Below are positions 60,594 to 64,000 of a stretch of DNA of 64,000 bases, in pieces. The position numbers and the translations under genes were made by a program. Where the stretch lies: contig NZ_QLSX01000001.1 in the NCBI RefSeq assembly GCF_003268885.1, positions 248,001-312,000 on the forward strand, read 5' to 3'. Numbering within the stretch: position 1 is the stretch's first letter; each line of letters begins with the position of its first letter. The notes beneath the pieces were generated by a model. It was not told the origin of the DNA. It worked only from the letters and a program-made list of their open reading frames with translations, and searched no databases. The stretch comes from Onishia taeanensis (GTDB lineage Bacteria > Pseudomonadota > Gammaproteobacteria > Pseudomonadales > Halomonadaceae).

Positions 60594-63335
60594 TCAATTA
60601 AGCGTGCCGTGACACTGCTTGTACTTCTTGCCGGACCCGCAGGGGCAAGGCTCGTTGCGCCCCACCTTGGGCCCCTCGCGACGCACCGGACGACCATCGC
60701 CACCCTCGGTAGCCGGCTGATCGGCAGGCGCCTCAGCGGCGCTCGCCGCGGCTTCGTCATGGCGGCTGGCGGCGCCGGCCTGCTCACGAGCCAGCGTCTC
60801 ACGGCGCTGCTGTTCGAGCTCCTCGACCTCTTCCTGGCGACGCACCTGGACGTGGCTCAGGATGCGCGTGATATCGGCCTTGATGTTGGCGAGCAGCCCT
60901 TGGAACAGCTCGAACGCTTCGCGCTTGTATTCCTGCTTGGGATTCTTCTGGGCGTAGCCGCGCAGATGGATACCGCGACGCAGGTGATCCATCGACTGGA
61001 GATGCTCCTTCCAGCGAGTATCCAGCACCTGCAACATCACCTGCTTCTCGAAGCGGCGCATCAGGGGCTCACCGACCGCGGCCACCTTTTCCTCATACAG
61101 CTTGCGGTGCGCCTCATGCAGACGCTCGCGCAGCTGCTCTTCGCTGAGGCGGGCATCCTCGGCGGACCATTGGGTCACCGGGGTATCGAGGTTGAACTCG
61201 GCCTTGAGGTGGGCCTCTAGCCCGGTCAGGTCCCACTGCTCGGGCAGACTCTGGGGCGGCACGAAGTCGCTGATCGCTTCGTCCAGCACCTCGTCGCGAA
61301 TGCCCAGCACGTTCTCGGAGACCTCTTCGGCCTCGAGGATGTCGTTGCGCTGCTCGTAAATCACGCGACGCTGGTCGTTGGCCACGTCGTCGTATTCAAG
61401 CAGCTGCTTGCGGATATCGAAGTTGCGACCCTCGACCTTCTTCTGGGCACGCTCGACGGCGTTGGAGACCATCTTGTGCTCGATGGCCTCACCCCGTTCG
61501 AGCCCCAGCGCCTGCATCAATCGTTGTACCCGATCGGAACCGAACAGACGCATCAGGTTGTCTTCCAGCGACAGGAAGAAGCGCGTCGAACCCGGGTCCC
61601 CCTGACGGCCGGAGCGGCCGCGAAGCTGGTTGTCGATGCGCCGTGACTCGTGGCGTTCGGAGCCGACCACATGCAGGCCACCGGCGGCCAGCACGGCATC
61701 ATGACGTTCCTGCCAGGCGGCCTTGATGGCCGCGATCTTAGCCTCGTCGGGGCTCTCGAGCTCGGCGACTTCAGCTTCCCAACTGCCGCCGAGCATGATG
61801 TCGGTACCGCGACCGGCCATGTTGGTGGCGATGGTCACCGCGCCGGGGCGACCGGCCTGGGCAATGATCTGCGCCTCGCTCTGGTGCTGTTTGGCGTTGA
61901 GCACGTTGAAGTTCATGCCGGCCTTGCGCATCAGATCGGCCAGATACTCCGAGGTTTCGATCGAGGCAGTACCCACCAACACCGGACGACCGGCCTCGGT
62001 TTCGGCCTGAACATCCTTGATGATCGCTTCGAACTTCTCCTCGCCGGTGAGATAGACCAGATCGTTAAGATCGCGACGAATCAGCGGGCGGTTGGTGGGA
62101 ATCACCATCACATCCAGGCTGTAGATCTGGCGGAACTCGAAGGCCTCGGTATCGGCGGTCCCGGTCATGCCGGAAAGCTTCTCGTAGAGGCGGAAGTAGT
62201 TCTGGAACGTGGTCGAGGCCAGCGTCTGGCTCTCGCGCTGAACGGTGACGCCTTCCTTAGCCTCGACCGCCTGGTGCAGCCCCTCGGACCAGCGACGGCC
62301 AGGCATGCTGCGCCCAGTGTGCTCATCGACGATCACCACCTGGCCGTCGTCGATGATGTAGTCGACGTCGCGCTGGTAGAGATGCCGCGCACGCAGCGCC
62401 GAATGCATGTGCTGAAGCAGGTTGAGGTTCTGGGCGGCGTAGAGGGATTCATCCTCACCGAGCAGCTCTTCGCCGCGCAGCAGCGCTTCCACCTTGTGGT
62501 GGCCTTCCTCGGTAATATCGACCTGCTTCTGCTTCTCATCGAGCACGAAGTCGCCATCCGGCGGCACATCATCGTCTTCGCTCTGCTCGCCTCGCACCAG
62601 GTCAGTCGACAGGCGGTTGATCACCTTGTAGAGCTCGGTGTTTTCTTCCACCGGGCCGGAGATGATCAGCGGCGTGCGCGCCTCATCGATAAGGATGGAG
62701 TCGACCTCATCGACGATGGCGTAGTGAAGCCCGCGCTGAACCTTGTCCTCGAGGGAGAAGGCCATGTTATCGCGCAGGTAGTCGAAGCCGTACTCGTTGT
62801 TGGTGCCGTAGGTAATATCGCAGGCATAGGACTGGCGCTTTTCATCGGAATTCTGGCCGGAATAGATCGACCCCACCGTCAAATCCAGGCGTTCGTAGAG
62901 CGGACGCATCCACTCGGCGTCACGGCGCGCCAGATAGTCGTTGACCGTGACCACGTGCACGCCCTTGGCGGGCAGCGCATTCAGGTACACGGCAAGGGTG
63001 GCCACCAGCGTCTTGCCCTCGCCGGTCTTCATCTCGGCAATACGCCCGGTGTTCAGCGCCAGGCCGCCGATCATCTGCACATCGAAATGGCGCATGCCCA
63101 TGACGCGTTTGCTGGCCTCACGCACCACGGCGAAGGCCTCGGGCAGCAGCGCGTCGAGTGACTCTCCCGCCGCCAGACGCTCGCGAAACTCACTGGTCTT
63201 GGCCCGGAGGCTGGCATCGTCGAGGGCCTCGAACTCCGCCTCCATGGCATTGATCTTGGCAACGACCTTGCCAAAGCGTTTGACCTCGCGGTCGTTCTTG
63301 GAGCCGACCACTTTGCGCAATAAATTATTAATCAT
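60594..63335 (-). CDS. secA: Preprotein translocase ATPase SecA
   Basis: Motor that drives preproteins through SecYEG. The chosen start [20 protein letters not shown] gives 913 residues, the usual length; an upstream ORF start at 63425 adds 30 unrelated residues. Walker A is [17 protein letters not shown], with [35 protein letters not shown], and [13 protein letters not shown] in the second nucleotide-binding domain. The C-terminal zinc tail [14 protein letters not shown] is intact, so SecB binding is expected. A small exported ORF is 91 nt upstream on the same strand. Confidence 0.97.
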
Positions 63336-63426
63336 GAAACGTCCGTTCTCTACCAAGCATCCGAATACGGGCCCGAGCACCTTGGCCAGGCACTGGCGCC
63401 CACTATCCGCCCAGCGGGCGGGCATA

Positions 63427-63771
63427 TCAGACGGTTTGGCAAGGGGGGCCGCGACGGGTCAGCACATCATGGGCGGCGGCGGGAACCCGCACCACCTTGC
63501 GTGGCAGCGGGCGATTCGGCAACTGAAGGCGCCAGCGACGAAGCGGCCGCCAGCGGCGTTGGCTCGCCTGACGGCGGCTTTCAGCGCGGATGACCGCCGG
63601 CGCTAGCCAACAGATATGCACCACCCGCTCGATCAGGCGCACGCCGTCAGCCTGTACCAGGCCCGCCGGCAACAGGCAGCCCACCAGCAAGCCTGCCAGC
63701 CACCAGCGCGTGCGACGGCGCGAGGCCGTATCGGCAGGCCGACTTGGGCTAGCGTTAGTAGAGCCGTTCAT
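63427..63771 (-). CDS. Small exported protein upstream of secA, possible SecM-like arrest peptide
   Basis: 114-residue ORF. After a polar N-terminus ([20 protein letters not shown]) it has a hydrophobic signal-like segment ([21 protein letters not shown], about 24-44, cleavage after VQA likely). The rest is Arg-rich, with no recognised domain. It ends [11 protein letters not shown], so RRGPP lies four residues before the stop. SecM of E. coli has RAGP four residues before its stop and also precedes secA, and other arrest peptides end in RAPP-type motifs. The similarity is in layout and motif only; the Trp/Ile pattern of enterobacterial SecM is absent. A plain hypothetical exported protein is the alternative. 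Confidence 0.6.
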
Positions 63772-63792
63772 GCTGTTGGAGGTCTCGCGGGC

Positions 63793-63824
63793 ATGATAGA
63801 TTGCCGGTTATCGTTTGGCGTCAA
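63793..63824 (-). promoter_or_regulatory. Candidate promoter elements of the small ORF-secA unit
   Basis: Minus-strand TTGACG (63824-63819) and TATCAT (63798-63793), each a good match to consensus, but the spacer is 20 bp, longer than the usual 16-18. They lie in the 64-bp gap between the divergent dciA-like gene and the small ORF. Confidence 0.25.
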
Positions 63825-63835
63825 AAGTGCAGCCC

Positions 63836-64000
63836 ATGAGTATAAAGGTTAAGCGTTTCCGCGCCCAGCCCGTCACGTCGCTGCTCGGCGGCCGCGGTGA
63901 GCTCGGCGGCCTGATGCGCATGGCCGGCCTGATCGACCGGGCCCAGCAGGAACTGCGCGAGCATCTTCCCGAGGAAGTCCGCGAGCACGTGTTCGTGGGC
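63836..64000 (+). CDS. dciA: DciA/DUF721 family protein, start only
   Basis: First 55 codons of a plus-strand gene cut by the window end. The product begins MSIKVKRFRAQPVTSLLGGR and continues LMRMAGLIDRAQQELREHLP, the pattern of DUF721/DciA proteins, which help load the replicative helicase DnaB. A DUF721 gene beside secA is usual in gammaproteobacteria. There is no clear ribosome site before the ATG at 63836. Confidence 0.7.
   Translation, partial: MSIKVKRFRAQPVTSLLGGRGELGGLMRMAGLIDRAQQELREHLPEEVREHVFVG

Follow-up and report, generated by a model that had tools for sequence, protein, structure and literature searches.

A conserved leader upstream of secA in the Halomonadaceae, very probably a secretion-monitoring arrest peptide

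Introduction

Halomonas-type bacteria are used in biotechnology. The genome of one member of their family, Onishia taeanensis, carries a small open reading frame directly before secA, and the question it raises is whether this leader merely precedes the gene or controls it. The window analysed here is a stretch of 64,000 nucleotides (assembly GCF_003268885.1, contig NZ_QLSX01000001.1, positions 248,001 to 312,000), in which a preliminary description, made from the letters alone, had read the leader as a possible SecM-like secretion monitor. That reading is supported: the RRGPP sequence near the C-terminus is kept among homologues, the reading frame is intact, and the ribosome site of secA is predicted to pair with upstream RNA. 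We consider it highly likely that the leader's product is an arrest peptide which monitors secretion and controls secA, SecM-like in its action and separate in its origin. Very probably, it jams its own ribosome, senses protein export and switches secA on. Such export sensors are known, and the Halomonadaceae version has probably been described already. What is added here is a predicted RNA switch with positive and negative controls, a fixed spacer, a conserved IRAESRR block, a natural RGPP-to-RAPP exchange and an apparently single origin.

The leader and its locus

The leader ORF occupies positions 63427–63771 on the minus strand and encodes 114 amino acids between an ATG start and a TGA stop. 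A gap of 91 nt (63336–63426) separates its stop from the start of secA (60594–63335, with Pfam SecA domains), on the same strand. Minus-strand gene order is lpxC, leader, secA, argJ and a NUDIX/thiamine-phosphate-synthase gene (domains assigned by Pfam), with dciA between lpxC and the leader on the opposite strand. The hydrophobic, signal-like segment covers residues 23–42 (63646–63705), and its best 16 residues (24–39) have a mean hydropathy of 2.1. The protein ends in RRGPP-CQTV, so that RGPP forms residues 107–110 and is followed by four residues, and the proposed arrest core, DVLTRRGPP, spans residues 102–110 (63442–63468). No Pfam or NCBIfam family scored above its cut-off for the window's leader protein.

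The coordinates, the signal-like N-terminus, the 91 nt gap, the lack of a recognisable domain and the place of Arg-Gly-Pro-Pro four residues before the stop had all been given in the preliminary description, and are confirmed by the ORF, hydropathy and family searches. Its motif comparison holds in part: RGPP matches RAPP at three of four positions, as claimed, but matches RAGP at two rather than three.

A scan of the leader–secA gap gave no terminator-like site. Promoter scanning returned nothing before the leader ORF and a single promoter-like site, at 63352–63324, that overlaps the secA start; a simple −35/−10 pattern occurred in none of 146 stretches upstream of the leader. The DNA directly 5′ of the leader, between it and the divergent dciA (63772–63838 in the window), is conserved across the window and 146 homologous loci, with consensus elements before the ATG that resemble AATCTA-CATG, GGAG and CGACAGC. 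This DNA possibly comprises a promoter and a ribosome site.

Conservation across the Halomonadaceae

A first search found leader matches in 31 of 37 sampled family genomes, with no in-frame stop inside the leader in the homologues it listed; the nearest named records were from Onishia and Halomonas, followed by Modicisalibacter and Kushneria. The homologues checked also show the ORF to be intact in close relatives. A profile built from 27 homologues (alignment A1) matched 257 of 275 Halomonadaceae genomes, the 18 misses being 16 genomes of four genera (g3, g5, g22 and g24) and two incomplete genomes. Across the order, 19 of 390 sampled genomes matched, and 18 of these belong to the Halomonadaceae. 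The nineteenth match is weak (40 residues, E 6.5e-5) and was taken as spurious.

The locus was read in 170 cases (146 distinct), which came from 145 of the 257 carrier genomes, mostly the better-scoring ones, and from 12 named records; the other 112 carriers were left out. R[AG]PP stands near the C-terminus and secA stands beside the leader in all 170, a motif count that is conditional because loci were selected for their homology to the leader ORF. Among the 146 distinct homologues the motif reads RRGPP in 115, QRGPP in 24, PRGPP in three, CRGPP in two and PRAPP in two, which gives a core of RGPP in 144 and RAPP in two. An Asp lies five residues before the motif Arg in 141 of the 146, followed by Val in 133 and Leu in 124.

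Selection and spacer length

Within seven genera, each of the leader's five regions had a dN/dS far below 1, and constraint was distributed unevenly among them. The ratio was 0.02–0.08 in the signal core, 0.03–0.10 in the block that contains IRAESRR (residues 61–67, 63571–63591) and 0–0.20 in the last ten residues, compared with 0.16–0.49 in the spacer. Purifying selection is therefore strong on the signal, the IRAESRR block and the last ten residues, and much less so on the spacer, in six of the seven genera. The exception is genus g2, where the last ten residues (0.20) show no extra constraint relative to the spacer (0.16). The expectation that RRGPP would be conserved while the middle diverges is thus borne out, both by the motif counts and by the higher dN/dS of the spacer. 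Taken with the 257 carrier genomes and the motif in all 170 loci, the low dN/dS of the last ten residues makes chance an inadequate explanation of the ORF.

Seven residues are invariant in the 27-row alignment: L29, C32, L33 and P35 in the signal segment, and R107, P109 and P110 in the motif. Such invariance at residues 29–35 (63667–63687) is unusual for a plain signal sequence. An LVGC in this segment resembles a lipobox, but a hydrophobic stretch comes after it.

The divergent spacer is nevertheless held to length. The distance from the signal core to the end of the motif is 84.1 residues (sd 1.7, n = 146), compared with 30.5 (sd 3.7, n = 146) from the N-terminus to the signal core and 6.5 (sd 3.3, n = 145, with the fused locus L096 dropped) for the tail after the motif. 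The longest segment, divergent in sequence, is therefore the least variable in length. A conserved distance from motif to stop, which the preliminary description had put forward as a test, does not hold: it ranges from 2 to 16 residues, L096 again left out. IRAESRR sits 42–48 residues before P109, which would place it just outside the ribosomal tunnel when the ribosome is at the predicted stall site.

Distribution and origin

When 57 SecA N-termini were placed in a tree, rooted at its midpoint only, a branch with support of 100/99 set all 31 carriers apart from the rest, which is consistent with a single gain of the leader. From non-carriers of the order, 126 stretches upstream of secA were collected (six within the Halomonadaceae) and 124 scanned, two being too short. 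R[AG]PP occurs near an ORF end in two of the 124 (L248 and L285), neither with a hydrophobic segment. When a hydrophobic segment was required, one RAPP-like match was left, an HGSP in an ORF overlapping secA (L051). Among these 124 stretches there was no further secA leader that combines RGPP with a hydrophobic segment.

What precedes secA in most non-carriers is a different gene. An M23-peptidase signature lies before secA in 89 of the 124 stretches. A full-length orthologue of this M23 gene (E 4e-68 or better) was found in 13 of 38 genomes; it was absent from all 23 carriers examined, and also from two incomplete non-carriers. Since the M23 gene mostly stands before secA in non-carriers and is missing in the carriers examined, the leader occupies its place. 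Descent of the leader from a remnant of the lost M23 gene was considered and is not supported (profile probability 0.7%).

Relation to known arrest peptides

Fujiwara et al. (2024, PMC10987492) define the RQH family of arrest peptides and name a member group, uA_RQH_Pseudomonadales, that precedes secA in some of the GTDB Pseudomonadales. The member put to the test carries R109GPP and arrested translation in both PURE systems, with an arrest fraction above 0.9 (PMC10987492). For another RQH member, located before secDF2, the same paper showed that it induces its gene by way of a stem-loop. GTDB has moved most of the Oceanospirillales into the Pseudomonadales, with the Halomonadaceae among the merged families (PMC7498684). 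The leader and the published group share a uORF before secA, an N-terminal localisation signal, a C-terminal RGPP and the same GTDB order, and the R109GPP position recurs in three leader homologues (L019, L020 and L021). The Halomonadaceae leader is very probably uA_RQH_Pseudomonadales, because the family belongs to GTDB Pseudomonadales, because R109GPP is found among the homologues, and because no other such leader appeared in the 124 stretches; the identity is drawn from these features, the main text of PMC10987492 naming no species. There is possibly no difference between the two. In the literature searched, no paper naming an arrest peptide or SecM arrest in Halomonas was found.

The RQH class comprises small uORFs of unassigned function upstream of secA, secDF or yidC, which have an N-terminal localisation signal, a C-terminal RAPP-like sequence conserved among homologues and more than 30 residues from signal to arrest site. 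The leader fits this class: it is such a uORF, its signal is recognised by hydropathy and conservation, its RAPP-like sequence is kept in all loci read, and about 67 residues lie between residue 42 and P109. In section 12 of PMC10987492, spacer length is reported to vary widely in most secA and secDF leaders, a variation that is not seen here.

The resemblance to E. coli SecM is one of design. Both are small, signal-bearing leaders directly before secA on the same strand, and in the window's leader an arrest-type motif lies four residues from the stop, as RAGP does in SecM (residues 163–166 of 170). The leader differs in having RGPP rather than RAGP, in its body and length, and in a tail whose length varies across the family. 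None of 27 leader homologues matched the SecM families (PF06558 and PF10818) at E ≤ 1, while E. coli SecM matched PF06558 at 4e-58, and comparison of the leader with the SecM profile gave a probability of 0.1%. Homology to SecM is therefore not supported. The preliminary description had called the leader a convergent or overlooked sensor: 'convergent' fits, because there is no detectable homology to SecM, but 'overlooked' is probably untrue.

ApdA and ApdP, RAPP arrest peptides upstream of secDF, have a core of the same kind, which in the genus g7 homologues of the leader is RAPP itself, and are set apart by their target gene and lineages. MifM differs in its arrest sequence and target gene (YidC2); it additionally makes contacts at and beyond the tunnel exit (PMC6037786). 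When placed in ApcA, ApdP or SecM, RGPP can bring about arrest, in general with the greatest robustness, and proteomes avoid the sequence (PMC12992588).

Predicted pairing of the secA start with the stall-site codons

According to RQH toeprints, the P site is occupied by the third residue of the motif (PMC10987492); by analogy, a ribosome on the leader would be expected to stop when P109 occupies the P site and P110 the A site. The footprint of such a ribosome was assumed to extend from −30 to +14 relative to the P-site codon, which in the window covers 63433–63477. After thinning to below 85% similarity, 90 loci were folded; each folded segment began 30 nt before the P-site codon and ended 45 nt into secA. 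The measure was the fraction of the start region of secA (−20 to +5; 63331–63355 in the window, with GGAC at 63341–63344) that is paired with nucleotides under a ribosome stalled at RGP/P.

Mean pairing was 0.294. When the upstream part was replaced by dinucleotide shuffles (40 of them) it was 0.078, and the real sequence scored higher in 72 of the 90 loci. Replacing the upstream arm with that of a different species lowered it to 0.155; a locus's own arm paired better in 66 of 90 (p 5e-8, too optimistic, as are the other pairing p values, because the loci are related) and outscored every one of the 15 foreign arms at 15 loci of the 90. The partners of the start region are most frequent between −24 and +17, counted from the P-site codon. 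The window's locus scores 0.61 against 0.05 in shuffles, and the E. coli secM–secA region, used as a positive control, scores 0.49 by the same measure. The last codons of 58 M23–secA control loci showed no excess (0.075 against 0.063 shuffled; higher in 24 of 58, p 0.81).

The excess is found in 15 of 20 genera, in g17 by a hair, and is absent in g6, g8, g13, g16 and g18. In g19, nine predicted pairs link the codons around DVLN to the Shine-Dalgarno stretch of secA; in other loci, GGACC is the partner of the Gly-Pro codons (GGU-CC). The start region has a predicted openness of 0.41 without and 0.49 with a stalled ribosome (shuffles 0.45 and 0.46), a change on stalling that is modest on average. 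Covariation within single genera is slight, with two-sided change in five of 20 predicted pairs, one of them in the start-region helix, and in four of 43 pairs of a second set. These predictions, which hold for 15 of the 20 genera, suggest that the secA start region is sequestered by the stall-site codons and freed by a stalled ribosome; folding to see whether the ribosome site is sequestered was a test that the preliminary description had suggested. The stability of the whole fold was dropped as evidence, since the window's region is not significantly more stable than its shuffles (z −0.35 and +0.62).

Proposed mechanism and alternatives

We infer three steps: that the ribosome stalls, that export frees it, and that secA is induced. 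The first is drawn from published results for this motif in what is very probably the same family. The signal-like N-terminus would target the growing peptide to the Sec machinery. Once the P-site tRNA carries R107-G108-P109 and the Pro-tRNA for P110 has entered the A site, no peptide bond would form and the ribosome would stall. Where Sec activity is sufficient, a pull on the chain would free the stall and the ribosome would terminate, after which the mRNA could refold, its secA start region pairing with the codons around RGPP, and little SecA would be made. Where export is slow, the stalled ribosome would cover this arm, the secA start would remain open, and more SecA would be made.

A narrower version of this mechanism is conceivable but doubtful. 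The leader might be a two-site, ruler-type monitor that arose once at the place of the M23 gene, in which RGPP acts together with IRAESRR, whose distances to the signal and to the arrest site are nearly fixed. The stall would then be released only if, at a single defined chain length, IRAESRR engaged SecA, the translocon or the surface of the ribosome, in contrast to the length-tolerant SecM. It is unlikely that the leader stalls and is freed by an event that does not involve SecA, such as insertion of its N-terminal segment into the membrane by YidC or SecDF, with secA following another signal. The fixed spacer is indeed more like that of the YidC monitors of PMC10987492 than that of most secA leaders, but against this stand the target gene, which is secA itself, and the length of the spacer, which exceeds the MifM median of 54 given in PMC10987492 (taken from another landmark).

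The conserved signal segment and IRAESRR would also suit a small exported protein with a function of its own, the RGPP and the secA pairing being incidental or a matter of simple translational coupling, given that any ribosome crossing the arm would briefly open the helix. This is very improbable, as R[AG]PP is retained although the stretches between the conserved blocks change freely, and as the pairing has its centre at the predicted stall site and is absent from M23–secA loci. That the ORF is untranslated, and the stretch only a structured leader of secA, agrees with the structure predicted for the intergenic and leader RNA, but selection on codons in every region and a frame free of internal stops in the first-search homologues make it most implausible of all.

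Natural variation at the proposed arrest core

If a secretion-monitoring arrest peptide is the right reading, most of a large salt-loving family has its own secA-linked arrest peptide, apparently of single origin and without SecM homology. Feedback on secA would then clearly have arisen by convergence, with RGPP exchanged for RAPP in nature, and the 146 distinct natural variants would reveal which parts of a monitor are constrained: the arrest core, the block outside the tunnel, the spacer length and the RNA switch.

Among the loci read, the RAPP core occurs in genus g7 (L026 and L027), where PRAPP replaces RRGPP and the preceding DVL residues are lost. At one locus of genus g12 (L096, genome G072), the RGPP leader has no stop and continues in frame into secA, while leaders of its relatives in the genus stop normally. 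Codon choice at the motif is also skewed. At the A-site Pro codon (P110, 63442–63444 in the window, and its homologues), CCG is avoided (12% compared with 50% in secA) and CCT favoured (40% compared with 9%), a bias that could come from pairing or from tRNA choice. The motif Gly codon is GGT in 60 of 144 homologues (0.42, compared with 0.21 in secA), a trend that genus g11 reverses (6 of 27, compared with 0.49 in secA).
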